Source: Alphaproteobacteria bacterium
Lineage (GTDB): Bacteria > Pseudomonadota > Alphaproteobacteria > Caulobacterales > Maricaulaceae
Length of the DNA stretch: 64,000 nucleotides
Direction of reading: 5' to 3'
Assembly: GCA_024742735.1 (NCBI GenBank)
Contig: JANSXV010000001.1
Coordinates: forward strand, 1 to 64,000
Positions within the stretch are counted from its first letter, which is position 1; each line of letters starts with the position of its first letter. The position numbers were made by a program, and so were the translations under genes. Under the pieces are notes generated by a model that was not told the DNA's origin, made no database searches, and worked only from the letters and a program-made list of their open reading frames with translations. Positions 47,591-63,715 of the stretch are shown here, in pieces.

Positions 47591-47614
47591 GGGGCTGGCG
47601 AATTGGTCAGCCCC
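47591..47614. terminator. Hairpin between convergent putA and helicase genes
   Basis: GGGGCTG (47591-47597) pairs with CAGCCCC (47608-47614) around a 10-base loop. It lies between the putA stop and the helicase stop, overlapping the latter. There is no U tract in either direction, so it may be a weak terminator. Confidence 0.4.
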
Positions 47615-50258: not shown

Positions 50259-50333
50259 AGCGCGGCTGAGGCGAGGATGACACGGGCGGTCTGGGCGCCT
50301 AGTTTCTTCGTCAGCAGATCAGGAGAGCCCGCC

Positions 50334-52547
50334 ATGCGCCGTGTTTTCGCCACACTGTCCATTCTGGCTATCGCCGCCTGCTCTCCAGGCGAGCGCGACG
50401 CCGTTTCCAGCGACCAGGCGGGAGCGCCGGTGGATATCGAACAGGCGCCGCCGATCCGGGTCCCCGACTACCCTCAAAGCCGGCGCGTGGATCAGAGCGA
50501 TGTCTATCGCTCGGCGAGCCACGGCGAGGTCGAGGTGGCGGACCCTTATCGCTGGCTGGAAGCCGATGTGCGGGTCTCCGAGGAGGTCGCCGCCTGGGTG
50601 GAAGCGCAGAACGCCGTGACCCAGGCCTATCTCGATCAGCTGCCCGGCCGCGATTACATCGCCGAGCGCCTGCGTGAGCTCTGGAATTACGAGCGCTACG
50701 GCCTGCCTGAGCGCGCCGGGGAGCGGTATTTCTATACCCGCAATGACGGTCTGCAGGATCAAAGCGTGCTCTATGTGGCCGAAGGTCTGGAGGCTGAACC
50801 GCGCGCCCTGATCGACCCCAACGCCTGGTCCGGCGACGGGACCACCGCGTTGGCCGGCTGGGAGCCGAGCCCGGACGGGGCGATGCTGGTCTACGCGGTC
50901 CAGGAAGGCGGCTCGGACTGGCGGACGCTTCGGGTGCTGGATATCGAGACGGGCGAGGATCTCGCCGACGAGATCAGCTGGGTGAAATTCTCACCCATCA
51001 GCTGGGCTGTGGACGGGTCAGGCTTCTTCTATTCGCGCTATCCGCAGCCGGAGGAAGGCGAGGCGTTCACGGCTCTGAACCTCAACCAGGCGATCTATTT
51101 CCACGCCATTGGAACCGATCAGAGCCAGGACCGGCTGATCCAGGCTGACCCGGACAACCCGCAAGTAAGCTGGCGCGGATCGGTCAGCGATGACGGACGG
51201 TATCTGATCATCAACTCCTCCACGGGCACCGACGGCAACGGCGTGCATGTGCTCGACCTTCAGGCCGACGCCGCCGACCCGGTCCTGATTTTCGAGGGCT
51301 TTGCGAACAACCACGCCTATGTCGGCAATCTTGGAACGACCTTCCTGTTCCACACCGATCTGGGCGCCCCCAACGGCCGGATCGTGGCGGTGGACCTGTC
51401 AGACCCTTCATCGCTCACCGACGTGGTGGCCGAGGGCGCTGACCCCATCACCGGGGCCGACCATTTGGGCGGTCACCTGGTCGTGGAGACCATGCGGGAT
51501 GTGGCGAGCGCCGTGGCGGTCTACACCGAAACCGGCGACCTCTTGCGCGAGGTTGAGCTTCCCGGACTTGGCGTGGCGTCGGGCTTCTCCGGTTCGCCGG
51601 ACCGCGCGGAGACCTTCTACAGCTTTGAGAGCCTGAACCAGCCCGCCGCGCTATATCGCTATGACGTGGAGACCGGCGAAAGCACGGTCTTCCGCGCGCC
51701 GGAGCTGACTTTTGACCCCGAAGAGTACGTGGTCACCCAGACCTTCTATGACAGCACCGGTGGGGCGCGCATTCCCCTTTTCATCGCCCACCATCGCGAT
51801 GTCGATCCGAACGGGGCGCGCCCAACGTTGATCTACGGCTATGGCGGTTTCGCCATCACCCGACGGCCCGACTTCGATCCGCGCCGCTTGCAGTGGATGG
51901 AAATGGGCGGAGTGTACGCCATCGCCAATCTGCGCGGCGGCTCGGCCTATGGCCGGGACTGGCATGACGCCGGGCGGCTCGCGGAGAAGCAGAACGTCTT
52001 CGACGATTTCATAAACGCCGGCCGCGCCCTGATCGAGATGGGCTGGACCAGCCCGGACCATCTGGCGATCCATGGCCGCTCCAATGGCGGCCTTTTGGTC
52101 GGCGCCGTGGCCAATCAGGCGCCCGAGCTGTTCGCCGCCGCCCTGCCGGCGGTCGGCGTGATGGATATGCTGCGCTTCAACCAGTTCACCGCCGGGCGCT
52201 TCTGGGTGGATGACTACGGCAGCCCCCAGGATCCGGAGATGTTCGATGTCCTCTATGGCTACTCGCCCTATCACAATGTTCCTGAGGACGGAGAATACCC
52301 GGCGACCCTGATCACCACAGCCGACACCGATGACCGTGTGGTCCCAGGCCATTCCTTCAAGTACGCCGCCGAGCTGCAGGCCTCGAACACGGGTGATGCG
52401 CCGACGCTGATCCGCATTGAGTCGAGCGCCGGCCACGGCGCAGGAACGCCGGTCTCCAAGCTGGTGGAGGAAGCGGCCGATCGCTGGGCCTTCATCGCCT
52501 ACCATACCGGGCTTGATTCGACGGGCCGCGCCGAGCGGAGCCGGTGA
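50334..52547 (+). CDS. Prolyl oligopeptidase (S9), predicted lipoprotein
   Basis: Serine peptidase of 737 residues that cuts short peptides after proline. The N-terminus is a lipoprotein signal (ILAIAACSPGE), so it should sit in the cell envelope. An N-terminal seven-bladed propeller region (about 60-450) is followed by the alpha/beta hydrolase domain with Ser583 in GRSNGGLLVGAVA, the aspartate in TADTDDRVVPGHSFKYAAEL and the histidine in SSAGHGAGTP. The ATG at 50334 has an AGGAG site and begins the signal peptide; the open frame upstream runs into the helicase gene on the other strand and is not used. The next gene starts within its stop codon (GTGA). Confidence 0.94.
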   Translation: MRRVFATLSILAIAACSPGERDAVSSDQAGAPVDIEQAPPIRVPDYPQSRRVDQSDVYRSASHGEVEVADPYRWLEADVRVSEEVAAWVEAQNAVTQAYLDQLPGRDYIAERLRELWNYERYGLPERAGERYFYTRNDGLQDQSVLYVAEGLEAEPRALIDPNAWSGDGTTALAGWEPSPDGAMLVYAVQEGGSDWRTLRVLDIETGEDLADEISWVKFSPISWAVDGSGFFYSRYPQPEEGEAFTALNLNQAIYFHAIGTDQSQDRLIQADPDNPQVSWRGSVSDDGRYLIINSSTGTDGNGVHVLDLQADAADPVLIFEGFANNHAYVGNLGTTFLFHTDLGAPNGRIVAVDLSDPSSLTDVVAEGADPITGADHLGGHLVVETMRDVASAVAVYTETGDLLREVELPGLGVASGFSGSPDRAETFYSFESLNQPAALYRYDVETGESTVFRAPELTFDPEEYVVTQTFYDSTGGARIPLFIAHHRDVDPNGARPTLIYGYGGFAITRRPDFDPRRLQWMEMGGVYAIANLRGGSAYGRDWHDAGRLAEKQNVFDDFINAGRALIEMGWTSPDHLAIHGRSNGGLLVGAVANQAPELFAAALPAVGVMDMLRFNQFTAGRFWVDDYGSPQDPEMFDVLYGYSPYHNVPEDGEYPATLITTADTDDRVVPGHSFKYAAELQASNTGDAPTLIRIESSAGHGAGTPVSKLVEEAADRWAFIAYHTGLDSTGRAERSR

Positions 52548-53521
52548 CCCCCGACCTTCAGGACCGGCTCGACCGGGTCAGCGCCCTCCAGACCGCCTTG
52601 CGCGACGGCCGGCCGCGCCCGGACAAGGTCGCGTCCTGGTACTGCGCCAGCGCGCTTCTGGACGCTGACGGCGCTCCGGAAGCCGTGGCCGCGGACGTGC
52701 GCGCCATGCGCGAAGCGATCATCGGACGGATCGGCAAATCGCGCGCTCCGACCGGGGAGATGCGATGGGCCTATGCCGCGATGCTCGTCGCACGCGGCGT
52801 CAGCGCGGATCAGCTCGCGGCGCAACGCGAGGCGATCAGAACGACCTTTAAGAGTTCTGAGGCGTACAAGAAGACTGGGCGGCCCCACGCCGGCGGCTCT
52901 CGCGCCGCGCTGGTTCTGGCTGTCTGCGGCGCCGAGCCGGCGGCGGGCGCGAGGGCTTTCTTCGATATGAAGGTCCAGCTCAATCCGCCGTGCTGGCGGC
53001 GCGATCCCGGCGTGACCGACCTGTTCGCCGCCGCCCACGCCGCGAAGGGCGATGATGCCCGTATCGTGGCGCAAGCGCGTGACCGCGCGACGGAGGTCTT
53101 CGGCTCAGACAGTCGCGCCAGGGGTCACAAGCATACCGGCGCCAAGGCGTGTGCATTGTATGAGGCCGAGCCGCGCACCGTGCTGCGGCGCTTCCATGCC
53201 CTCGATGATGCGCGCAAACAGATCAAGGGTCTGCGCCATCGCGTCACCCGGGACATGGCGATTGAATGGGCCGCGCAAGGCCTGGAGCCCGCCGACCTGC
53301 AGACCATCGCAGACCTGATCGACGTTCTGCCGAAATCCCTGTCCGGCGTTTCAACCGGACGCTCCCGCATGGCGCACCTTCTGCTGACTCACGGCCGGGA
53401 GGGCGCCGAGTTCGGCGAGATCACGGCGCTCGCCGCCATCATCGCCGCCCAGACCGCCGCGCTGGTCGCCGTCATGGCCGCCACCACTGCGACGACGACG
53501 GCCGCCACTGCGGGGAGCTGA
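52544..53521 (+). CDS. Unrecognised protein coupled to the prolyl oligopeptidase
   Basis: A 325-residue protein starting at a GTG that overlaps the stop of the peptidase gene (GTGA), so it is translationally coupled. The first 280 residues look soluble and helical, with short repeated themes such as EAVAADVRAMREAI and ADQLAAQREAIRTTF, and three scattered cysteines. It ends in a hydrophobic, Ala/Thr-rich tail (AAIIAAQTAALVAVMAATT) that may be a membrane anchor. It faintly resembles helical proteins of the DUF4003 kind, but not enough for a call. It has normal codon use. The next gene is the repair exonuclease, 39 bp on. Confidence 0.7.
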   Translation: MTPDLQDRLDRVSALQTALRDGRPRPDKVASWYCASALLDADGAPEAVAADVRAMREAIIGRIGKSRAPTGEMRWAYAAMLVARGVSADQLAAQREAIRTTFKSSEAYKKTGRPHAGGSRAALVLAVCGAEPAAGARAFFDMKVQLNPPCWRRDPGVTDLFAAAHAAKGDDARIVAQARDRATEVFGSDSRARGHKHTGAKACALYEAEPRTVLRRFHALDDARKQIKGLRHRVTRDMAIEWAAQGLEPADLQTIADLIDVLPKSLSGVSTGRSRMAHLLLTHGREGAEFGEITALAAIIAAQTAALVAVMAATTATTTAATAGS

Positions 53522-53560
53522 AGGCTCGCAGCGCACCCGCAGCGCCCTAGTTTGTTCGTC

Positions 53561-54580
53561 ATGATCCGGCCCGAAGACCTTCTACGAGAGACCGAACGCG
53601 GCCTGTGGTGCCAGCCGGGCGGGTTCTTTATCGATCCCATGCGCCCGGCGGACCGGGCGGTCGTCACCCATGGCCATGCCGACCATGCGCGGGCCGGGCA
53701 CTCGAAAGTCGCCGCCACGCCGCAGACCCTGGCCATCATGGCCTCGCGCTATGGCGAAGACTTCGCTGAGAGCCGCCAGGCCATGGAATACGGCGAAGTC
53801 GTGCGCATGGGTGAGGTGGATGTCAGCTTCCACCCGGCGGGCCACGTGCTGGGCAGCGCCCAGGCAAGGCTGGAATGGAGGGGGCTCGTGATCACCGTGT
53901 CCGGCGACTACAAGCGCCGCCGCGATCCCACCTGTACGCCGTTCGAGATTGTTCCGAGCCACATCTATGTCAGCGAGGCCACGTTCGGCTTGCCGGTCTT
54001 CCGCCATCCCGACGACACGGGCGAGATCGCCAAGCTGCTGGCCAGCCTGAACCGCTTTCCCGAGCGCGCCCATCTGGTCGGCGCCTACGCCCTGGGTAAG
54101 GCGCAGCGGATCATCTGTCTGCTGCGCGAGGCGGGCTATCACGATCCGATCTATATCCACGGTGCGCTGAAACAGCTGTGCGCGCTCTATGAGGATCACG
54201 GCGTTCAGCTGGGCGAGCTCCGAAACGCCACGCTCAAGGATGAGGACGGCAAGAAGGCCGATTTCGCCGGCAAGATCATCATCGGTCCGCCCTCGAGTTT
54301 CCAGACCAGCTGGGCGCGGCGCTTTCCCGATCCGGTCACGGCCTTTGCATCGGGGTGGATGCAGGTGAGAGCCAGGGCCCGCCAGCGCGGCGTCGAACTG
54401 CCGTTGATCCTGTCCGACCACGCGGACTGGGACGAGCTGACCGACACGGTGCGCGAAAGCGCGCGTGAAGAGCTCTGGATCACCCATGGCCGCGAGGACG
54501 CGCTGGCCCGCTGGGCGCAGCTCGAAGGCCTGAAGGCGCGGCCCTTGTCGCTGGTCGGCTATGAGGACGAGGGCGAATAG
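53561..54580 (+). CDS. Ligase-associated DNA damage response exonuclease
   Basis: Metallo-beta-lactamase/beta-CASP fold nuclease of 339 residues, from the group that accompanies a dedicated ATP-dependent DNA ligase. Metal ligands are in VVTHGHADHARAG (35-47), FHPAGHVLGSAQ, VSGDYKRRRDPTC and the C-terminal LSDHADWDEL; ITHGRED lies near the end. The ATG at 53561 is used instead of a TTG three codons before it. No clear ribosome binding site is seen. The matching helicase is on the other strand 3.3 kb upstream; the ligase and phosphoesterase of the group are not in the window. Confidence 0.92.
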   Translation: MIRPEDLLRETERGLWCQPGGFFIDPMRPADRAVVTHGHADHARAGHSKVAATPQTLAIMASRYGEDFAESRQAMEYGEVVRMGEVDVSFHPAGHVLGSAQARLEWRGLVITVSGDYKRRRDPTCTPFEIVPSHIYVSEATFGLPVFRHPDDTGEIAKLLASLNRFPERAHLVGAYALGKAQRIICLLREAGYHDPIYIHGALKQLCALYEDHGVQLGELRNATLKDEDGKKADFAGKIIIGPPSSFQTSWARRFPDPVTAFASGWMQVRARARQRGVELPLILSDHADWDELTDTVRESAREELWITHGREDALARWAQLEGLKARPLSLVGYEDEGE

Positions 54581-54624: not shown

Positions 54625-55602
54625 ATGGATGCGCTGTCGCTTGCAATTACGAATCTGACCTCGCCGGCCTTCCTGTTCTTCGCGCTCGGCGTGGGGGCGG
54701 GGCTGGCCCGGTCGGATCTGGAAATCCCTCAGGCCGTGGCCAAGGGCCTTGCGCTCTATCTGATGCTCGCCATCGGCTTCAAGGGCGGTGTGGAAGTCAG
54801 CAAGGTGGGCCTGACGCCCGACCTGTTGCTGGCCGCCGGCGCGGGCGTGCTCTTGTCTTTCTCCATGCCGCTCATCGCCTATGGGCTATTGCGGGCCTTT
54901 ACAAAGCTGGATCAGGTCACGGCGGCGGCCGCAGCGGCGCACTACGGGTCGATCTCGGTTGTCACCTTCGTGGCTGGCTCGGAATTCCTCACCGCGTCAG
55001 GGCTGGTTTATTCCGGCCACATGATCGCGGTTCTGGCCTTGATGGAGACACCGGCGATCCTGACCGGGCTCCTGCTGGCCGGGCGCAGCGCTGGGCAGGC
55101 CGATGCGCGCGAACGCGGCGAGCTGCTTCGAGAGGTGGCGCTGAACGGCTCGGTGGTGCTGCTCATCGGCGCCTTCGCCATCGGATGGATTTCCGGCGAG
55201 CCTGGCATGGAGAAGCTCTATCCCTTCGTGGACGAGCTGTTCCAGGGCGTGCTTGTCCTGTTCCTGCTGGACATGGGCCTGGTCGCGGCCCGCCGCATGG
55301 GCGGGGCGAAACGCCTGGGCGTGAACGGCGTGATCTTCGGCGTCGTCATGCCGCCCATCGGCGCAGCTTGCGCCCTGCTGATCGCGCTGGTGATCGGCAT
55401 GAGCGCAGCCGACGCGGCGGCGCTCATGATCCTGGGCGCCTCGGCGAGCTATATCGCGGTGCCGGCGGCCATGCGCATCGCCTTGCCGAAGGCGGATCCC
55501 AGCGTCTATCTCACCTTGTCGCTGGCGATCACCTTCCCGTTCAATCTCGCCATCGGCATTCCGCTCTACGCATTCCTCGCCCGTTCCGTCATCGGAGGCT
55601 GA
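54625..55602 (+). CDS. sbtA: SbtA-family sodium-dependent bicarbonate transporter
   Basis: A 325-residue permease of the SbtA family, known in cyanobacteria as a Na+/HCO3- symporter. About ten membrane helices form two inverted halves. The first starts FLFFALGVGAGLARSDLEIPQAVAKGLALYL and both halves contain family stretches such as IGFKGGVEVSKVG, HYGSISVVTFVAGSEFL and GASASYIAVPAAMRIALP. It is 50 residues shorter than cyanobacterial SbtA. It is followed after one base by an SbtB-like PII gene, so the regulator is coupled. Bicarbonate transport is inferred from the family. Confidence 0.9.
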   Translation: MDALSLAITNLTSPAFLFFALGVGAGLARSDLEIPQAVAKGLALYLMLAIGFKGGVEVSKVGLTPDLLLAAGAGVLLSFSMPLIAYGLLRAFTKLDQVTAAAAAAHYGSISVVTFVAGSEFLTASGLVYSGHMIAVLALMETPAILTGLLLAGRSAGQADARERGELLREVALNGSVVLLIGAFAIGWISGEPGMEKLYPFVDELFQGVLVLFLLDMGLVAARRMGGAKRLGVNGVIFGVVMPPIGAACALLIALVIGMSAADAAALMILGASASYIAVPAAMRIALPKADPSVYLTLSLAITFPFNLAIGIPLYAFLARSVIGG

Positions 55603-55603
55603 C

Positions 55604-55912
55604 ATGCCCCGCACCAAGGCCAAGAAGATCATAGCCATCGTCGAGGCGCCGCACTTGAAGCGGCTGATCGAGCTCTTGCGAGCGTGCGGCGTGACCGGTT
55701 TCACTGTGATCGAGGGGCGCGAGGGCTCCGGCCTGACCGGCGACTGGACCAGCGCCGATCTGCTGGACGCCGCCGAGATGAAGGTCGTCCACTCGGTGAT
55801 GAAGCCGGACACGGCTGACAAGGTGTTCGAGCGCGCCGATCCGTTCTTCAAGCGCTATCCCGGCATCATTTACGGCTATGATGTGGAAGTGCTGCGTGGC
55901 GAGCGCTTCTGA
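55604..55912 (+). CDS. sbtB: SbtB-like PII signalling protein
   Basis: A 102-residue PII-fold protein that should bind adenine nucleotides (or cAMP, as in cyanobacterial SbtB) and control SbtA. The PII layout is visible: the beta strand KKIIAIVEAPHLKRLIELL, the fold's GVTGFTVIEGREGSG, a T-loop-like segment GLTGDWTSADLLDAAEMK and a final strand IIYGYDVEVL. The redox-sensitive CGPxGC tail of many cyanobacterial SbtB proteins is missing. The ATG has a GGAGG site. A good terminator follows 38 bp after its stop codon. Confidence 0.87.
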   Translation: MPRTKAKKIIAIVEAPHLKRLIELLRACGVTGFTVIEGREGSGLTGDWTSADLLDAAEMKVVHSVMKPDTADKVFERADPFFKRYPGIIYGYDVEVLRGERF

Positions 55913-55949
55913 GGGCGGTCTCAAAGACCGCAACGCCGGCAAGGTGAAG

Positions 55950-55975
55950 AAACCGGGCGGATTCGCTCCGGTTTT
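55950..55975 (+). terminator. Intrinsic terminator after sbtAB
   Basis: AAACCGG-GCG (55950-55959) pairs with CGC-T-CCGGTTT (55964-55974) with a single bulged T and a GATT loop, ending in TTTT. It closes the sbtAB unit before the antiporter operon. A second perfect hairpin, GCGGTCT-CAA-AGACCGC, lies just before it at 55915-55931, immediately after the sbtB stop. Confidence 0.7.
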
Positions 55976-56060
55976 GCTGGAAATGACAGATCGGGTTTCC
56001 TAGAACCCCGCCATATCGCCGCAGTCCGGAGTCAGGGCGCGGCGCGGCAAGGAGCGCATT

Positions 56061-56561
56061 GTGGGCCGACGGCTCGTATACGGCTTTGTTCTGACGGTGG
56101 TGCTGGCCGTGCTTTGGCTGGCGCTGTCTGGCATGTGGTCGAACCTTCTGATCACCGCGCTGGGCGCGGCGTCCGTGGCGGTGTCGGTCTACATGACCAT
56201 CCGCATGGGCGTGCTGGACGGGGAAAGCGTGCCGTTCGCGAACCTGATTCGGTTCGGCCGCTACTGGGGCTGGCTCGGCGGCGAGATCTTCAAGGCCAAT
56301 ATCGCCGTGGTTCGCCTGGCGCTCGCGCCCAACCTGAACATCAAGCCCGTCCTCACCCGCGTGGCCGCCGACCATGGCAGCGACCTGGCGCGCACTACCT
56401 TCGCCAACTCCATCACGCTGACGCCGGGCACGGTGACCGTGGAGGTGGAGCCCAACGGCTTCCTTGTTCACGCCCTGGATGAAAGCTTCGCCGACCAGGA
56501 GGCCTTCCGCGACATGGAGCGGCGCGCGGTCAGGGCTTCGGACGGGGAGGCGCCGGCATGA
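56061..56561 (+). CDS. mnhE: Mrp-type antiporter subunit E
   Basis: A 166-residue MnhE/MrpE subunit of the multisubunit Na+/H+ antiporter (also called MbhA). Two N-terminal helices are followed by a soluble C-terminal part with the family segment FANSITLTPGTVTVEVE and a conserved HALDESFAD stretch. The GTG start has an AAGGAG site. Its stop overlaps the start of subunit F (ATGA), opening a chain of overlapping genes that continues to 63.7 kb. Confidence 0.93.
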   Translation: MGRRLVYGFVLTVVLAVLWLALSGMWSNLLITALGAASVAVSVYMTIRMGVLDGESVPFANLIRFGRYWGWLGGEIFKANIAVVRLALAPNLNIKPVLTRVAADHGSDLARTTFANSITLTPGTVTVEVEPNGFLVHALDESFADQEAFRDMERRAVRASDGEAPA

Positions 56562-56881
56562 TCATGAGCGCAGTCGATTTCGCCGTGGGCGCCATTCTGG
56601 CGTTCGCCATGGTGATCATCCTGATCCGCCTGTTCGCCGGCCCGACGCTTTATGACCGGGTGCTGGCGGTGAACGCCTTCGGCACAAAGACCGTGCTGTT
56701 CCTCGTCGTGTTCGCCCTGATGGTGGACGAGCCGGCGGCCATCGATATCGCGCTGCTCTATGCGCTGATCAACTTCATCGCAACGATCGCGATTCTGAAA
56801 TTCTTCCGCTACCGCTCGCTGGAGGTGGCCCTGTCGGCCATGGCGCTGCGCAAGGCGCTGGACCGGGAGGATGAGGAATGA
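56558..56881 (+). CDS. mnhF: Mrp-type antiporter subunit F
   Basis: A 107-residue MnhF/MrpF subunit with three membrane helices (about 5-27, 38-58, 63-82). The core stretch RLFAGPTLYDRVLAVNAFGTK is highly typical of this family. It overlaps subunit E and subunit G by four bases each. A full Mrp antiporter needs all seven subunit types, and E, F and G are present in the same order as in archaeal Mbh clusters. Confidence 0.93.
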   Translation: MIMSAVDFAVGAILAFAMVIILIRLFAGPTLYDRVLAVNAFGTKTVLFLVVFALMVDEPAAIDIALLYALINFIATIAILKFFRYRSLEVALSAMALRKALDREDEE

Positions 56882-57240
56882 GTCCGTCGCTCCTGATTGA
56901 GTACGGCCTTGATGCGGTCTCGGCGGTGCTGATGATCACCGGCGCGGTGTTCGTGCTGGCCGGCGCCATCGGCATGATGCGCCTGCCCGACTTCTACACC
57001 CGCATGCATGCGGCCGGGGTGACCGACACGCTGGGCGCGGAGCTGATCGTGATCGGTCTGATGTTCCAGTCCGGATGGTCGCTGGTCACGGTCAAGCTGG
57101 CGCTGCTGGGCCTGTTCGTGTTTCTCACCAGCCCCACGGCCACCCACGCCACGGCCAACGCCGCCTACAAGGCCGGGCTGAAGCCGCTGCTCACACGCTT
57201 CCGTCCCGGCGGCGACGACCAGAACGGGAGTCCTCTGTGA
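56878..57240 (+). CDS. mnhG: Mrp-type antiporter subunit G
   Basis: A 120-residue MnhG/MrpG subunit with three membrane helices. Family marks are MITGAVFVLAGAIGMMRLPDFYTRMHAAG, here with the conserved LPDFYTRMH, then TDTLGAELIVIGLM and the closing SPTATHATANAAYKAG. It overlaps subunit F by four bases, and its stop codon overlaps the start of the next gene by one base. Confidence 0.93.
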   Translation: MSPSLLIEYGLDAVSAVLMITGAVFVLAGAIGMMRLPDFYTRMHAAGVTDTLGAELIVIGLMFQSGWSLVTVKLALLGLFVFLTSPTATHATANAAYKAGLKPLLTRFRPGGDDQNGSPL

Positions 57241-57797
57241 TGGTCGATTTCACGCAAGTCTTCGACTACGTGCTCATGGCCATGCTTCTGGCCATCGGCG
57301 TGGCGGTCATCCGCCTGAAGAACCTGTTCGCCATCGTCATGCTCACCGGGGTGTACTCGCTCCTGTCGGCGGCCTGGTTCGTCTCGCTCGACGCGCTGGA
57401 CGTGGGCTTCACCGAAGCGGCCGTGGGCGCGGGCGTGTCGACCGTGCTGTTGCTGGCCGCCATGCTTCTGACCGCGCGCGACTGCGATCATGTCGGCGCG
57501 GCGCGCCACTGGGCCGCCCTTGCGGTGACGGTCGCGGCCGGCGCCGCGCTGTTCTACGCCCTGCCGGACATGCCGATCTACGGCTCAGGCGACACCCCGG
57601 CCAATTCCGGCGTGGGCATGGACTACATGATGCGCACCGGGGAAGAGCTGTTCATCCCCAACGTGGTCACCGCCGTGCTGGGCTCCTACCGGGGCTTCGA
57701 CACCATGGGCGAGGTGTTCGTGGTGTTCGCCGCCGGCGTCGGCGTGGCGCTGCTGATGGGCCTGGGCGGTGGCAAGCGGGACGAGGAGGACGTCTGA
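57240..57797 (+). CDS. MrpA C-terminal-like subunit (MbhD/MbhE type, DUF4040)
   Basis: A 185-residue membrane protein equivalent to the C-terminal third of the large MrpA subunit, or to archaeal MbhD plus MbhE. The first half has FAIVMLTGVYSLLSAAWFVSLDALDVGFTEAAVGAG, the MbhD (DUF4040) signature with its helix-breaking glycine, broken here by normal variation; the second half has NVVTAVLGSYRGFDTMGEV, typical of MbhE/MrpA-end. In a classical Mrp operon these belong to one large MrpA; here they form a separate gene. It overlaps subunit G by one base. Confidence 0.88.
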   Translation: MVDFTQVFDYVLMAMLLAIGVAVIRLKNLFAIVMLTGVYSLLSAAWFVSLDALDVGFTEAAVGAGVSTVLLLAAMLLTARDCDHVGAARHWAALAVTVAAGAALFYALPDMPIYGSGDTPANSGVGMDYMMRTGEELFIPNVVTAVLGSYRGFDTMGEVFVVFAAGVGVALLMGLGGGKRDEEDV

Positions 57798-57798
57798 C

Positions 57799-58242
57799 AT
57801 GGGCGCACACCTGATCCTGCGCGTCGTCGCCAAGCTGCTGATCCCGCTGATCTTCATCTTCGGCTTCTATGTGCATTTCCACGCCAAGTACGCGCCTGGC
57901 GGGGCCTTCCAGGCCGGCGTGATCCTGGCCGCTGCGGTGATCGTCTACGGCCTGATTTACGGCATGGACGCCGCGCGCAAGGCCGTGCCGCCCTGGGCGG
58001 CGCGCGTGGGCATGGCGCTGGGCGCCTTTATCTTCGCCGCCGTCGGCTTCGTCTCCCTGATCTTCGGCGAGAATTTCCTTGATTACGACGTGCTGCATCC
58101 GGACGTGGAGCATGCGCGCGGCCAGTATCTGGGCATCATCCTGGTGGAGATCGGCGTGCTCCTGACCGTGACCACGGTGATCATCGCCATCTTCTACGCC
58201 TTCGCAGGCCGCTCGCCTGAAATCACCGAAGAGGAGTGGTGA
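57799..58242 (+). CDS. mnhB: Mrp-type antiporter subunit B
   Basis: A 147-residue MnhB/MrpB subunit with four membrane helices. HAKYAPGGAFQAGVILAAAV contains the conserved PGGGF-like loop of this family (here PGGAF), and VEIGVLLTVTTVIIAIFYAF closes it. The ATG at 57799 follows a GAGGAGG-like stretch and lies one base after the stop of the previous gene. Subunit C starts three bases after its stop codon. Confidence 0.92.
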   Translation: MGAHLILRVVAKLLIPLIFIFGFYVHFHAKYAPGGAFQAGVILAAAVIVYGLIYGMDAARKAVPPWAARVGMALGAFIFAAVGFVSLIFGENFLDYDVLHPDVEHARGQYLGIILVEIGVLLTVTTVIIAIFYAFAGRSPEITEEEW

Positions 58243-58244
58243 GC

Positions 58245-58649
58245 ATGATCGAGATGCTCGGCGAACGCTTCACCTATGCGGTGATCATCATCCTGATGAT
58301 GGTCGGCCTGTATGCGCTGATCGCGACCGGCAACCTGGTCAAGCGCATGGTGGGGCTGACGATTTTCCAGACCTCGGTGTTCCTGCTCTACATCTCCATG
58401 GGCAAGGTGTTCGGCGGCGCGCCGCCCATCCTTCCCTATTACGAGATTAAGAATGACAGCCTTGATCCGACGGCGCTGTATTCCAACCCGCTGCCCCACG
58501 TCCTGATCCTGACGGCCATCGTCGTGGGCGTGGCCACGCTCGCCATGGGGCTGGCGCTGGTGGTGCGCATCCGCGAGGCCTACGGCACGATCGAGGATGA
58601 CGACATCGCCGAGGCTGACTACTCGCTCGAACTGGAAAAGGGCGTGTAG
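58245..58649 (+). CDS. mnhC: Mrp-type antiporter subunit C (NuoK-like)
   Basis: A 134-residue MnhC/MrpC subunit, the NuoK counterpart. Three helices are visible, with the family stretch LIATGNLVKRMVGLTIFQTSVFLLYI and the C-terminal LPHVLILTAIVVGVATLAMGLALVVRI, the typical NuoK/MrpC ending. The ATG at 58245 has a GAGGAG site eight bases upstream and is preferred over GTG codons at 58236 and 58239. Confidence 0.92.
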   Translation: MIEMLGERFTYAVIIILMMVGLYALIATGNLVKRMVGLTIFQTSVFLLYISMGKVFGGAPPILPYYEIKNDSLDPTALYSNPLPHVLILTAIVVGVATLAMGLALVVRIREAYGTIEDDDIAEADYSLELEKGV

Positions 58650-58652
58650 GCT

Positions 58653-60188
58653 GTGAGCGATCCGATCCTGCTTCCTGCGGCTCTGGCCGCCCATGCCCCT
58701 GCACTGCTTGTTGCGGTTCCGTTGATCCTGTCGACGGTGGCCGCCGCGCAACCCTCAGGCCGCTTTGCCTGGGCGCTGGCCTTCATCTCGGCGGCCGTGG
58801 CGTTCTTCTGCGCCATCGAGCTGTTCGCCGCGACGCGCGGGGAGTATGCCATCGTCTCGTACGCCATGGGCGGCTGGGAGCCGCCCTTCGGTATCGAGTT
58901 CCGCATTGACGGGCTGAACGCGGCGCTCTTGCTGCTGCTGTCTGCGACGGCGCTGGTGACGCTGGTTTTCGGCTTCTCCACGGTCGAGGACGAGGTCGAT
59001 CCCGACAAGCGCTCGCTGTTCTATTCCGCCTTCATGCTGTGCTTCTCCGGCCTATCCGGCGTGGCGATCACAGGGGACGCGTTCAACCTGTTCGTTTTCC
59101 TGGAGATCAGCTCCATCGGCACCTACGCCATCATCGCCATGGGCTGGAGCAATGACCGGCGCGCGCTGACCGCCTCGTTCAACTATCTGGTCATGGGCAC
59201 GATCGGGGCGACCTTCTTCGTCATCGGCATCGGCTTTCTGTATATGGCCACCGGCACGCTCAACATGGCCGACATGGCCGCACGCATCGCCGAGCTGCCA
59301 GGCAACCGGGTGGTGGAAGTCGGCTTCGCCTTCATTCTGGTGGGGATCGGTCTGAAGGCGGCTTTGTTCCCGCTGCATCTCTGGCTGCCCAACGCCTACG
59401 CTTTCGCGCCGAGCTTCGTGACGACCTTCCTCGCCGCCACGGCGACCAAGGTCGCCTTCTACGTGATCATCCGGTTCAGCTTCGACGTCTTCGCCATCGA
59501 TTCCGGTTTCGTGCAGAACGCGCTGACCTATGTGGTCACGCCGCTGGCCATCGCAGGCATGATCATCGCCTCGGCCCAGGCCCTGTTCCAGGCCGATGCG
59601 CGCCGTTTGCTCGCCTACTCGTCGGTGGCCCAGGTCGGCTACATGCTGCTGGGTCTCGGCATCGCCACGGCGGCGGGCGTGACGGCGGGCGCGCTGCACC
59701 TTCTCAATCACGCCCTCATGAAGGGCGCGCTGTTCATGGCGCTGGGCGCGTTCTTCTACAGCTATGGCGTGCGCCGGATCGATGATCTCAAAGGGCTGGG
59801 CCAGGCTATGCCGGCGGTCGGCGGCGCCTTCACCATCGGCGCGCTCAGCCTGATCGGCGTGCCGTTCACGGCGGGCTTCATCTCCAAATTCTATCTGATC
59901 CAGGCCGCGCTGCAGAATGGCTGGTGGTGGGCGGTCGTCGCGATCCTGGCGGCTTCGGTGCTGGCGGTGTTCTACTGCTACCGCATGCTCGTGGCGCTGT
60001 GGGTCAACCCCAAGCCGGAGCCGGAGCACCTGCCCAACGGCCATGTGCGCAAGGTCCCGCTGACCATCCTGGTTCCGCTCTACGTGTTTGCGCTGGCGAA
60101 CCTCTATTTCGGGATCAATTCTGAATTCATGGTCGACATGGCGCGCATCGCCGCCGAGGCCGCCATTAACGGGGGAGTGGGCCGGTGA
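58653..60188 (+). CDS. mnhD: Mrp-type antiporter subunit D
   Basis: A 511-residue proton-pumping antiporter subunit of the NuoM/N/MrpD fold with about 14 helices. The lysine-bearing helix FAFILVGIGLKAALFPLHLWLPNAYAFAP and the later LLNHALMKGALFMALGAF are the conserved ion-channel elements, and FLEISSIGTYA carries the glutamate of the first half-channel. The GTG start at 58653 is two bases after subunit C. It overlaps the next gene by four bases (GTGA). This is the true MrpD by position and sequence. Confidence 0.93.
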   Translation: MSDPILLPAALAAHAPALLVAVPLILSTVAAAQPSGRFAWALAFISAAVAFFCAIELFAATRGEYAIVSYAMGGWEPPFGIEFRIDGLNAALLLLLSATALVTLVFGFSTVEDEVDPDKRSLFYSAFMLCFSGLSGVAITGDAFNLFVFLEISSIGTYAIIAMGWSNDRRALTASFNYLVMGTIGATFFVIGIGFLYMATGTLNMADMAARIAELPGNRVVEVGFAFILVGIGLKAALFPLHLWLPNAYAFAPSFVTTFLAATATKVAFYVIIRFSFDVFAIDSGFVQNALTYVVTPLAIAGMIIASAQALFQADARRLLAYSSVAQVGYMLLGLGIATAAGVTAGALHLLNHALMKGALFMALGAFFYSYGVRRIDDLKGLGQAMPAVGGAFTIGALSLIGVPFTAGFISKFYLIQAALQNGWWWAVVAILAASVLAVFYCYRMLVALWVNPKPEPEHLPNGHVRKVPLTILVPLYVFALANLYFGINSEFMVDMARIAAEAAINGGVGR

Positions 60189-61657
60189 GCTGGACGCCTG
60201 AACTCGCCCTGGCGCTGACCCTGATCATCCCGTCGCTCGGCGGGGTGGGCGTGGCGCTGCTGGGCCGCTGGCCCAATCTGCGTGAAGCCGCGACGCTTCT
60301 CAGCGCGGTCGCTCTGGCGGTCGTGGTGGCCTATCTGGTGGAGGTCTCCGGCCAGCGTCCGGAGCTGACCCTGATCGAGTTCGCGCCCGGCCTCAGCCTG
60401 ACCTTCCATCTGGAACCGCTGGGCGCGGTCTTCGCCATGGTGGCCAGCGGTCTTTGGATCGTGAACTCGCTGTACTCCATCGCCTATATGCGCGGGAACG
60501 CCGAGACCAATCAGACCCGCTTCTATTTCTGCTTCACGATCTCCATCGCGGCGGCCATGGGCATCGCGCTGGCGGGCAATCTGCTGACGCTGTTCTTCTT
60601 TTACGAACTTCTGACCCTGTCGACCTTCCCGCTGGTCGCCCACAAGGGCGATGGGAAGGCGAAGAAGGGCGCGGCGATCTATCTCGGGGTCCTGCTTGCG
60701 ACCTCCATCGGCCTTCTCCTGCCCGCGATCTTCGCGACCTACGCCCTCACCGGCACGACGGATTTTGAAGCTGGCGGCATCCTGGCCGGAGCGGCAGGGC
60801 CGGTGGCCGGCTCGATCCTGCTGGTCATGTTCGCCTTCGGCATCGGCAAGGCCGCGCTCATGCCCACCCATCCCTGGCTTCCAAACGCCATGGTGGCGCC
60901 GACCCCGGTCTCCGCGCTGCTGCACGCCGTGGCGGTGGTTAAGGCGGGCGTGTTCACGATGCTGAAGGTGGTGATCTACACGTTCGGGCCAGACTACATG
61001 CAGACCCTTCCGGCCGCTGATGTTCTGGCCTGGATCGCCGGCGCCTCCATCGTCGTGGCTTCGGTCATCGCCATGACCAAGGACAATCTGAAAGCCCGGC
61101 TCGCCTTCTCCACGGTCAGCCAGCTGTCCTATGTGACGCTGGGCGCCATGCTGGCCAGCCCGGCGGCCCTGATGGGCGGAGCGCTTCAGATCGTCATGCA
61201 CGCCTACGGCAAGATCACGCTCTTCATGACCGCCGGCGGGATCTACACCGGGACCAAGAAGGGCGAGATCAGCCAGCTCGACGGGCTGGGCTGGTACATG
61301 CCGGTCACCTTCGCCGCCTTCGCCATCGGCGCGCTGTCCATCATCGGCGTACCGCCTTTCGGCGGGGTCTGGCCGAAAATCTTCCTCATGGACGGCTCGG
61401 CCGAGGCCGGCCAGCCTTGGCTGATCGCTTTCCTGATCGGCTCGACCCTTTTGAATATCGGCTACCTGCTGCCCATCGTGATCCGCGGATTCCTGAAGCC
61501 CAAGCCGGAGGTCAGCCCCATGAAGCCGGGCAAGCCGCCTGCGCTGGCCTTCGTGGCGCCGGCCTTCACCGCGATCATGACGATCGTGCTGTTCTTCGCG
61601 GTCGGGCCGATCATCGACTTCCTCCAGCCCGTCTTCACCACGGAGATGACGCCATGA
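60185..61657 (+). CDS. Second antiporter-like subunit, NuoL/MrpA-type core
   Basis: A 490-residue proton-channel subunit. Unlike the gene before it, it carries the NuoL/MrpA signature GIGKAALMPTHPWLPNAMVAPTPVSALLHAVAVVKAGVF (here described in parts: GKAALMPTHPWLPNAM, then APTPVSALLHAVAVVKAG). It therefore looks like the N-terminal core of MrpA encoded alone, with the MrpA C-terminal part encoded separately at 57240. The channel glutamate is in FFFYELLTLSTFP. It overlaps both neighbours by four bases. Confidence 0.88.
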   Translation: MSWTPELALALTLIIPSLGGVGVALLGRWPNLREAATLLSAVALAVVVAYLVEVSGQRPELTLIEFAPGLSLTFHLEPLGAVFAMVASGLWIVNSLYSIAYMRGNAETNQTRFYFCFTISIAAAMGIALAGNLLTLFFFYELLTLSTFPLVAHKGDGKAKKGAAIYLGVLLATSIGLLLPAIFATYALTGTTDFEAGGILAGAAGPVAGSILLVMFAFGIGKAALMPTHPWLPNAMVAPTPVSALLHAVAVVKAGVFTMLKVVIYTFGPDYMQTLPAADVLAWIAGASIVVASVIAMTKDNLKARLAFSTVSQLSYVTLGAMLASPAALMGGALQIVMHAYGKITLFMTAGGIYTGTKKGEISQLDGLGWYMPVTFAAFAIGALSIIGVPPFGGVWPKIFLMDGSAEAGQPWLIAFLIGSTLLNIGYLLPIVIRGFLKPKPEVSPMKPGKPPALAFVAPAFTAIMTIVLFFAVGPIIDFLQPVFTTEMTP

Positions 61658-61989
61658 CCGCGCCGCGCAAACCACACTCGGCGAGCGACGGCGTGCATCC
61701 TCTGGCGCGCCCCTTCCTGACGCTGTTTTCACCGCGCGCCGGCTTTTTCGCCGTGGTGGTCCTGGCGGTGCTGCTCGTGCTTGGCTTCGCCATTGAAGCC
61801 GCCGTGACTGGCGGGGAGGGGCTGTCGAAGTATCCGGAAGTCCTGGGCGGCTACGAAATCCTGCCCGCCGTCGCTTTGGCGGCGGCGATCCTGGTCTCCT
61901 GGGTCGTGCGCTGGGTGCTGGGCGCGTCTGCGAATTTTTATGAACGCGCCGCTGGCGATGTGATCAAGGAGGACGACGGCGATGCCTGA
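61654..61989 (+). CDS. Small membrane protein within the antiporter operon
   Basis: A 111-residue protein with two predicted membrane helices (about 32-52 and 73-92), a basic Pro/His-rich N-terminus (MTAPRKPHSASDGVHP) and an acidic C-terminus (KEDDGDA). It overlaps the gene before it by four bases and the gene after it by eight, so it is fully embedded in the operon. It matches none of the standard Mrp subunits A-G. It may be an extra subunit or assembly factor; that is inference from position only. Confidence 0.75.
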   Translation: MTAPRKPHSASDGVHPLARPFLTLFSPRAGFFAVVVLAVLLVLGFAIEAAVTGGEGLSKYPEVLGGYEILPAVALAAAILVSWVVRWVLGASANFYERAAGDVIKEDDGDA

Positions 61990-63715
61990 GTTTCTCCAGC
62001 AGATTTCGCCCGCTTTCGCGCTGATCCTGGCCGGCGTTCTCGCGCTGGCCGCGCCCTCCAATGCGATCCGCAAGGTTCTGATGATCGCGGGGCCGCTCGC
62101 TGGGCTGGCCATGTGGTTCATGGTGCGCGAGCCGGGCGTCTACGGCCTTGTCGATATCGGCCCCTTCACGCTGGAGACCTTCCGCTTCGACGCGCTGTCG
62201 CGGGTCTGGGCGCTGGTCTTCCTTCTGATCAGCTTCATCAACGGCATCTACGCCCTGCATGAGCGCTCACGCTGGGCGGACGCAGCTTCGCTGATCTATG
62301 CCGGTTCTGCGGTCGGCGCGGTGTTCGCGGGCGATCTCCTGACCCTGTTCTTCTTCTGGGAGATCACGGCCATCGCCTCGGCGCCGCTGATCTTCGCGGC
62401 TGGCGGGGCCGTCGCGCGACGCGCGGGCCTGCGCTATCTGGCGATCCAGGTGCTCTCCGGCGTCCTGCTGCTGGGCGGGGCCGCGCTGTGGGCGAGCCAG
62501 ACCGGGTCGTGGAGCTTCGGCGGGATGAACGAGACCGGCGTGTTCGACCTGAACAGCGCGGCGGGCATCGCGATCCTCATCGGCTTCGGCATCAAGGCCG
62601 GCTTCCCGCTGCTGCACATGTGGCTGCCCGACGCCTATCCCAAGGCCACCGGTTTCGGCGCGGTCGTGCTTTCGGCGTTCACCACCAAGATGGCGATCTA
62701 CGCGCTCGCGCGCGGCTATGCCGGCGAGGAGATCCTGATCACGATCGGCCTGATCATGGCGGTCTTCCCGGTCTTCTTCGCCATTGTGGAGAATGACCTG
62801 CGCCGTACGCTCGCCTACGCCCTGATCAACCAGCTGGGTTTCATGACCGTGGCGGTCGGCGTGGGCTCGGAGCTGGCCCTCAATGGCGCAGCGGCCAACG
62901 CCTTTGTCGGCGTCATCTACATGGCCCTGTTCTTCATGGTCATGGGCGCGGTGCTGCGCCAGACCGGAACCGTGAAGGCGTCCGAGCTCGGCGGTCTGTT
63001 CAAGTCCATGCCCGTGACCGGCTTCATGGGCGTGATCGCCGGCCTGGCTGTCGTGGGCGCGCCGCTGTTCTCCGGCTTCGTGGCCAAGACGCTGATCCTG
63101 TCCTCGGTCCATTATGAGCATCTGACGCTGGCGTATTTCGTCCTGTTCTTCGCGTCTGCCGGCGTGATGGAGCAGACAGCGCTGAAAGTGCCCTTCTTCG
63201 CCTTCTTCGGTCAGGACCGCGGTCACCGCGTCTCCGAAGCCCCCGTCGGGCAGCTGGTCGCCATGGGGCTCGCGGCCTTCCTGTGCCTCTTCATCGGGAC
63301 CCAGTATCAGGCGCTGTACGGCCTGTTGCCGTTCGATATCGATTACAAGCCATACAAGCTGGATTCGGTCGTTGGACAGATCCAGATTCTGATCGCCGGC
63401 GCGCTGGCGTTCGCGGCTCTGATCTGGCTGAAGCTCTATCCCCTGCGCGGGGACCGGACCATTGTCGATGCTGACTGGCTGTACCGCTATTTCGGCGACG
63501 GCGCGGCGCGCTGGTTCGCGGCCATGGGCCGGCTGTTCGTCAGCTGGACCGAGCAGGTGCTGGGCGGCGTGTTCAAGACGATCGGACGGTCGCTGTTCAA
63601 CGTGTTCAGCCCGGCCGGCGCCCTGTCGAAGGATTTCCCGTCCGGTCTCATGGCGCTCTGGACCGCGATCATGCTGGCGGCGGTCCTGCTGGTTGCGTAC
63701 TTCTCCCCCGTGTAA
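61982..63715 (+). CDS. Third antiporter-like subunit, with C-terminal extension
   Basis: A 577-residue NuoM/MrpD-type proton-channel subunit. Channel elements are FFFWEITAIASAPLIF, GFGIKAGFPLLHMWLPDAYPKATGFG and FTTKMAIYA. After the usual 14 helices it has an extra 80-90 residue tail (WLYRYFGDGAARWFAAMG, then an amphipathic stretch and a final helix WTAIMLAAVLLVAYF). This resembles the lateral helix plus terminal helix of NuoL and of MbxH'-like subunits, which clamp neighbouring subunits together. It is the last gene of the operon. Confidence 0.9.
   Translation: MPEFLQQISPAFALILAGVLALAAPSNAIRKVLMIAGPLAGLAMWFMVREPGVYGLVDIGPFTLETFRFDALSRVWALVFLLISFINGIYALHERSRWADAASLIYAGSAVGAVFAGDLLTLFFFWEITAIASAPLIFAAGGAVARRAGLRYLAIQVLSGVLLLGGAALWASQTGSWSFGGMNETGVFDLNSAAGIAILIGFGIKAGFPLLHMWLPDAYPKATGFGAVVLSAFTTKMAIYALARGYAGEEILITIGLIMAVFPVFFAIVENDLRRTLAYALINQLGFMTVAVGVGSELALNGAAANAFVGVIYMALFFMVMGAVLRQTGTVKASELGGLFKSMPVTGFMGVIAGLAVVGAPLFSGFVAKTLILSSVHYEHLTLAYFVLFFASAGVMEQTALKVPFFAFFGQDRGHRVSEAPVGQLVAMGLAAFLCLFIGTQYQALYGLLPFDIDYKPYKLDSVVGQIQILIAGALAFAALIWLKLYPLRGDRTIVDADWLYRYFGDGAARWFAAMGRLFVSWTEQVLGGVFKTIGRSLFNVFSPAGALSKDFPSGLMALWTAIMLAAVLLVAYFSPV

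Follow-up and report, generated by a model that had tools for sequence, protein, structure and literature searches.

Mrp antiporters of group 3 are described as lacking mrpA and carrying mrpD, at times in several copies (PMC8415708). In 'Candidatus Nitrospira alkalitolerans', the mrpA-G genes were assigned to group 3, two extra genes with similarity to NuoM/NuoL follow mrpD, and the bicarbonate symporter gene bicA lies nearby (PMC7784846). The Microbacterium TS-1 operon mrpFGBCDDAE includes three channel genes (PMC5703873), and the rhizobial "green" complex I carries two MrpD-like subunits in place of NuoL (PMC9040806). In the model of Steiner and Sazanov, two antiporter-like subunits correspond to 2 H+ per Na+, the coupling points being Lys-TMH7/Glu-TMH5 together with the neighbor's Lys-TMH12 (TMH, transmembrane helix); these residues and Lys-TMH8 are the key channel residues, and Lys-TMH7 is called absolutely conserved in the complexes compared there (PMC7419157). 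Here, we analyzed an operon of the Mrp family at 56061-63715 of a 64,000-nucleotide stretch of DNA (the window: positions 1 to 64,000 of contig JANSXV010000001.1, assembly GCA_024742735.1, an alphaproteobacterium of the Maricaulaceae). The operon is ordinary in itself, and its interest lies in a module common to a sodium antiporter and respiratory complex I.

The ten open reading frames of the operon, all on the forward strand and tightly packed through overlaps or gaps of a few bases (Table 1), run mrpE-F-G-A'-B-C-D1-D2-sm-D3, where A' denotes the MrpA C-terminal domain, D1, D2, and D3 the three Proton_antipo_M proteins, and sm a 111-amino-acid (aa) protein preceding D3. Homologues of MrpB, C, D, E, F, and G and the MrpA C-terminal domain are found together in one operon, which is the gene content of an Mrp (CPA3) antiporter. 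The single large MrpA with a fused N-terminal channel that marks groups 1 and 2 is absent, the C-terminal domain being a separate gene, and the wording for group 3 in PMC8415708 fits the operon. The genes after D1 are D2, sm, and D3, not the hydrogenase or sulfane reductase subunits that would mark the membrane-bound hydrogenase (MBH) or membrane-bound sulfane reductase (MBS). As a whole, the operon would best be explained as a stand-alone, membrane-only group 3 Mrp cation/proton antiporter, a reading built on homology and gene order to which we give a probability of about three in four.

An earlier note on this DNA had proposed an Mrp operon in Mbh-like order, and the reading frames and family scans bear out both this assignment and the places of the genes. 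The three channel subunits with intact Lys and Glu residues that it described are likewise found, since D1, D2, and D3 each exceed the Proton_antipo_M cut-off and each carries all four channel residues. As to the novelty that it wanted checked, the set largely matches described group 3 Mrp operons, and in Nitrospira mrpD is already known to be followed by two additional channel-like genes (PMC7784846). The ten-gene set is not new and belongs to a recognized, widespread Mrp group. Moreover, D3 scores 575.7 bits against NF009310 (PRK12668, "Na(+)/H(+) antiporter subunit D"; curated cut-off 564), so that the third subunit is already a modeled family. The gene order, whose comparison among relatives had also been proposed, is found again among Maricaulaceae, Gammaproteobacteria, and Nitrospirota and in numerous further genomes.

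The likeness to 'Ca. Nitrospira alkalitolerans' lies in the two channel-like genes after mrpD and in the bicarbonate transporter nearby, which is BicA in Nitrospira and SbtA in the window; in its available text, PMC7784846 mentions neither sm nor the residue differences reported below. Three channel genes are also shared with Microbacterium TS-1, but in a different gene order, whereas the group 3 Mrp of Pyrococcus has a similar order (E-F-G-B-B'-C-D) but a single channel. The C, D, and F subunits and the MrpA C-terminal domain align with the Bacillus/Anoxybacillus Mrp structures (7qru, 6z16), in which, however, a single MrpA gene includes an N-terminal channel, only two channels are present, and MrpF has Asp at position 35 (6z16). 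The Mrp part of the Pyrococcus MBH/MBS membrane arm (6cfw, 6u8y) has the same gene order (PMC7419157), A' is MbhD/E-like, and D1 is closest to MbsH, but MBH/MBS carries hydrogenase or sulfane reductase where the window operon carries D2-sm-D3. A' exceeds the Pfam cut-off for MbhD (PF13244, 51 bits; cut-off 27.2) and remains below it for MbhE (PF20501, 22.6 bits; cut-off 27), includes the motifs DVGFTEAAVGAG and DTMGE, and has MbsD/E, MbhD/E, and the MrpA C-terminus as its PDB matches.

Table 1. Genes of the Mrp operon and of the adjoining SbtA pair, in window coordinates
Feature	Position	Strand	Evidence and remarks
SbtA-type Na+-dependent bicarbonate transporter	54625..55602	+	PF05982, 367 bits
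P-II-like protein beside SbtA (SbtB-like)	55604..55912	+	PF00543, 44.7 bits
mrpE	56061..56561	+	MNHE family, Pfam PF01899, 101.8 bits; GTG start
mrpF	56558..56881	+	MrpF_PhaF, PF04066, 60 bits; alignment to 6z16_F
mrpG	56878..57240	+	PhaG_MnhG_YufB, PF03334, 95.8 bits; TIGR01300 over cut-off
A' (MrpA C-terminal domain, own 185-aa gene; MbhD+MbhE-like, NuoJ-like)	57240..57797	+	NF009159 over cut-off
mrpB	57799..58242	+	MnhB, PF04039, 98.3 bits; NF009162 over cut-off; ATG at 57799, GTG at 57769 a possible alternative start
mrpC (NuoK-like)	58236..58649	+	Oxidored_q2, PF00420, 72.7 bits; best PDB match MbsG, 69.5 bits
D1 (mrpD/mbhH-type channel subunit)	58653..60188	+	Glu151, Lys235, Lys266, Lys412; best PDB match MbsH
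D2 (second channel subunit)	60185..61657	+	Glu141, Lys222, Lys253, Lys398; NdhF/NuoL/MrpA-like by score
sm (small protein, two hydrophobic segments)	61654..61989	+	no Pfam/NCBIfam family
D3 (third channel subunit, predicted tail helices)	61982..63715	+	Glu127, Lys205, Lys236, Lys369; NF009310

The best solved relatives of D1 are MbsH (250 bits), MrpD (171-199 bits), and MbhH; D2 scores highest with NdhF, NuoL, and MrpA, and D3 is the most divergent of the three channels, with a best score of 102 bits (MrpD). The phylogenetic tree comprised 138 rows (near-duplicates L019, L024, L027, L117, and L118 excluded), including as "other" 26 rows from 16 loci among 65 weak matches of Chloroflexota, archaea, and further taxa (L028-L092), whose gene order was followed by phmmer only. 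D2 forms one group with its complex I and orphan copies (29 rows, support of 100 in the Shimodaira-Hasegawa-like approximate likelihood ratio test [SH-aLRT]), D3 likewise another (29 rows, SH-aLRT 100), D1 joins MrpD (SH-aLRT 94), and MrpA joins NuoL and six of the "other" rows (SH-aLRT 95). Both the D2 and the D3 groups lie outside the MrpA+NuoL branch, with backbone supports (11-26) too low to place D2. The split of MrpA into two distant genes, as the earlier note had worded it, is not supported, because D2 does not group with MrpA in this tree.

The same genes are found in complex I. On pSymA of Sinorhizobium meliloti, the nuo2 order is nuoJ, nuoK, D2, an 84-aa hypothetical protein, D3, nuoM, nuoN, nuoA, and nuoC-F, and six further loci match this order as far as their stretches reach. 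The D2-sm-D3 order and the tree groups are those of the window operon, but the green complex I (nuo2; L115) is an NADH:quinone oxidoreductase with NuoM, N, A, and C-F, and its D3 has no Lys-TMH7. By phmmer and profile matches, sm is homologous to the 84-aa protein between the MrpD-like genes of nuo2. Its tail reads like R-x-E-D-Y-Y in most of 72 rows, with N-F-Y-E in the window. The window protein and three relatives fell below the cut-off of every Pfam and NCBIfam family, and none of the PDB matches to sm was credible (best E-value, 0.052); sm is a conserved small subunit unnamed in both family databases. Judged from gene order and the tree, D2-sm-D3 is a conserved module standing where the N-terminal half of MrpA would be here and NuoL in rhizobial complex I.

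We viewed 75 loci in wide context: 59 were assigned to Mrp (D1 upstream and no match to NuoK or NuoM), 12 to complex I, and 4 to neither. D2, sm, and D3 are contiguous in 58 of the 59 Mrp loci and in 11 of the 12 complex I loci, and an sm homologue occupies the same slot in 58/59 Mrp loci. Gene E together with D1-D2-sm-D3 was seen in 50 Mrp loci, most of the others being cut by the ends of contigs or stretches. At several loci, A' and B share a single frame, and overlapping frames shuffle a few of the small-gene matches. The full series from E to D3 stands on named contigs including those of Maricaulaceae (L013, L015, L016, and L019), Nitrospirota (L020), and a gammaproteobacterium (L022). Conservation across the 59 Mrp loci excludes chance or artifact as the origin of the arrangement.

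D3 itself, counted at the family cut-off unless an E-value of 1e-100 is stated, occurs in 48 of the 61 genomes of the search among relatives (own genome included), in 21/398 genomes of the phylum sample, and in 87/385 of the class sample (97 at 1e-100). In a different class of the same phylum, that of G329, it was found in 63/369 genomes (65 at 1e-100), in the phylum of the Nitrospirota locus L020 in 26/148 (27 at 1e-100), and in the class of G139 in 2/48; the loci taken from the large searches are at most the best 30 by score. The seven nearest named loci, with D3 identities of 64-81%, come from Oceanicaulis, from Marinicauda, and from an unplaced Maricaulaceae bacterium, which places the genome of the window with Oceanicaulis/Maricaulaceae. 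A search of plasmids with D2 gave, among the matches listed, only further rhizobial-type loci and was not used. In the genome of the window, six genes encode Proton_antipo_M proteins, namely, D1-D3 and three others at a distance of about 455 kb on this contig, taken for nuoL, M, and N from their order and length; the longest of the six frames (701 aa) is the one taken for nuoL.

A difference between the two contexts lies in one lysine of the last channel. Lys-TMH7 is kept in all D1 (60/60) and D2 (72/72) rows, window included, and in NuoM and NuoN of seven green complex I loci. At the same position of D3 (rows de-duplicated by sequence), the Mrp loci have Lys in 39/59 and Asn in 20/59, the complex I loci Asn in 11/12 and Ser in 1/12 with no Lys, and the five copies assigned to neither context Lys in two and Asn in three. 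One batch of wide contexts was mostly picked for D3 without Lys-TMH7 and the other consists mostly of Lys copies, so that the ratio of 39 to 20 does not measure prevalence. Among 136 distinct D3 frames, none of the 25 with NuoM directly downstream has Lys-TMH7 (22 Asn, 2 Cys, and 1 Thr), and the 111 with no NuoM in a short flank, a set that includes some complex I copies with short flanks, e.g., L093 and L094 (= L116 and L117), comprise 84 Lys, 26 Asn, and 1 Ser. Hence, the concern that the third channel lacks its Lys/Glu residues is unfounded for the window, where all are present, and applies to one lysine in many relatives. All 29 D3 frames from the Nitrospirota-phylum search and L020 are without Lys-TMH7, the gene of 'Ca. 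Nitrospira alkalitolerans' lying outside the set compared. At TMH8, Asn occurs in one complex I copy of D2. When nine outgroup rows are added to the D3 tree, the Lys rows fall together as a single group nested within the rest, a pattern that takes no more than two changes; the outgroup branches are long and flagged.

We tentatively propose, at clearly less than even odds, that D2-sm-D3 is an exchangeable distal module, common to a widespread Mrp type and complex I, whose last channel exists in two TMH7 states. In the assigned contexts, the Lys-TMH7 state was seen in Mrp alone, and the Asn or other state occurs in some Mrp and in every complex I copy viewed. If pumping requires Lys-TMH7, D3 adds no pump to the green complex I or to the five-channel Complex_I_3 of Manganitrophaceae, in disagreement with the 5 to 6 protons that PMC9040806 proposes, and the Mrp of the window is a true three-pump antiporter. 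Two observations speak against such a need: Glu aligns at TMH7 in Pyrococcus MbsH and in 4 of the 26 "other" rows; hence, a D3 that lacks Lys-TMH7 may conduct all the same. The paired TMH7 states represent a natural experiment on the disputed role of this lysine, described in one structural study as absolutely conserved and essential, and comparisons of such variants make the disputed number of protons per antiporter-like subunit testable. The Lys-TMH7 difference between complex I and Mrp D3 may be new. The word "lysine" does not occur in PMC9040806, and in literature that was covered in part, by searches not always aimed at these points, we found no prior mention either of an sm common to Mrp and complex I or of a complex I D3 without Lys-TMH7; no priority is claimed.

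The AlphaFold model of D3 (24 sequences) reached a mean predicted local distance difference test (pLDDT) of 84.1 and a predicted template modeling score of 0.84. Foldseek ranks MrpA and MrpD first, and VIA-align ranks NuoL first (Z of ~44), nearly tied with MrpD (Z of 43.0). The alignment to MrpD covers the core only (model residues 3-453), and those to NuoL reach into the lateral helix (4-517 for E. coli, 4-538 for the mycobacterial protein), which argues that D3 probably sits at the far end of the complex, as NuoL does. A lateral-helix-like tail had been noted from the letters alone, and the model predicts it as one long helix broken once (498-527 and 529-542), followed by a last helix (555-574).

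As an antiporter, the operon most likely encodes an electrogenic cation/proton exchanger with three channels in series. The E-F-G-A'-B-C subunits, whose homology to known Mrp subunits is shown, would form the cation module. By analogy with Mrp, MBH, and complex I structures, D1 would adjoin this module, followed by D2 and the distal D3, whose long tail helix would brace the row of channels. Protons entering through the three coupled channels would drive cation efflux. Since all three channels carry the full Glu/Lys set, the H+ per cation ratio could exceed that of a two-channel Mrp, for which we see slightly less than an even chance. In the genus, the exported Na+ would probably also power the neighboring SbtA bicarbonate importer.

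Several points weigh against this scheme. The tail helix of D3 is predicted at low confidence (pLDDT of ~43-62). Moreover, a third full pump is apparently not essential to the complex type, since Lys-TMH7 is absent from D3 in 20 of the 59 Mrp copies of the enriched sample. D3, with sm, could be mainly structural, its tail helix holding the row together, with about two protons exchanged per cation and Lys-TMH7 of D3 dispensable. Its absence from those copies and from 12/12 complex I copies, with D1 and D2 always keeping theirs, favors this explanation, but the window and 39/59 Mrp copies keep all four residues, and Glu-TMH5, Lys-TMH8, and Lys-TMH12 are each kept in 135 of the 136 D3 frames (the exception at Lys-TMH12 is a cut frame); we regard a mainly structural D3 as rather unlikely. 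The cation path also departs from that of Bacillus-type Mrp. Asn39 of the window MrpF aligns with Asp35 of Anoxybacillus flavithermus MrpF (6z16_F), and this position is Asn in 50/55, Gly in 4, Ser in 1, and Asp in none of the sequences of this Mrp type (window and near-copies included), compared with Asp in 10/10 references of groups 1 and 2 drawn from different genomes of the class. By pairwise alignment, His37 and His40 of MrpC are replaced by Thr46 and Phe49 in the window. FQ precedes the changed site in 57/59 MrpC rows (one misaligned and one cut), and at the FQ-(T/V/A) site the group 1/2 references have S or G, then (Y/N)-A-x-(N/H). The A' motif is TEAxVG in all 49 aligned rows, window included, as in MBH/MBS, and TQxxVE in 10 references; alignment over the motif failed for MrpC of L275 and L026 and for A' in six rows. 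By its residues, the cation path is that of the MBH side with changes of its own, and the ion is therefore not readable by analogy with Bacillus. These replacements would suit K+ or another ion, or a path unlike that of Bacillus-type Mrp. However, MBH and MBS, which share the A' motif, are reported Na+ pumps (PMC8415708), and the SbtA neighbor in the genus suggests a Na+ economy; we consider this explanation unlikely.

The same neighbor could make of SbtA, SbtB, and Mrp primarily a unit for inorganic-carbon uptake, in which the antiporter recycles the Na+ used for bicarbonate import. In 11 of the 15 genomes of the genus (own included; positions compared by eye), SbtA accompanies the operon on the same strand, some 4 kb upstream from D1, and in Nitrospira bicA has a group 3 Mrp in its vicinity (PMC7784846). 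Outside the genus, by contrast, SbtA adjoins the operon in no more than 2 of the 22 remaining genomes of the family, 21 of which have the operon, and in none of the 24 genomes of the order, 12 of which have it; we consider a primary role in carbon uptake quite improbable. A redox-driven, Mbh-like complex whose partner is encoded elsewhere would be consistent with the Mbh order of the membrane arm and with the Mbs/Mbh-like D1, C, and A'. As the earlier note had stated, however, no hydrogenase or oxidoreductase subunit follows among the translations of the 8.4 kb from 63600 on, which were judged by eye with no family scan; those recognized are a DnaA-C-like protein, other unrelated proteins, and argininosuccinate synthase. 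NuoB, C, D, H, and I were found neither in the family scans of 54625-63715 nor by eye in the next 8.4 kb. Moreover, the NuoA, C, D, E, F, and J profiles match no Mrp-context locus (no hydrogenase profile was used), and D2 and D3 would lie on the side where MBH bears its hydrogenase (PMC7419157). We consider a redox-driven complex very improbable and retain the stand-alone antiporter.

Some copies found on the way stand outside these patterns. At L126 (G139:C27, 8751-12316), D2-sm-D3 stands alone near flagellar-looking genes (by eye), with no other Mrp or complex I matches and with Lys-TMH7 in its D3; the same genome has two more D2-sm-D3 copies in Mrp context (L128 and L129). L259 (G829:C244, 155-7829) has two sm-D3 pairs, both D3 with Asn at TMH7, and no D2 was detected there; by eye, its neighborhood includes a large multidomain synthase-like gene. 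In the Nitrospirota-phylum sample, the genome G712 (L262 and L282) has four D3 matches, one of which lies among complex I genes that include two NuoM matches, like the five-channel Complex_I_3 of PMC9040806. At TMH5, TMH7, and TMH8, the D3 of L179 (frame from 1480), with NuoM downstream, reads Gln, Thr, and Asn; it is perhaps a non-conducting copy.

Around the window operon, a promoter/terminator scan gave no excess over shuffled sequences (0 against 1.5; 7 against 5.9). The genome carries one more SbtA-type gene, on a separate contig (G000:C26). Upstream, at 47607-54580, a possible DNA repair cluster was noted by eye, with a large Lhr-like helicase, a metallo-beta-lactamase-fold exonuclease-like protein, and, encoded on the opposite strand, a prolyl-oligopeptidase-like protein.

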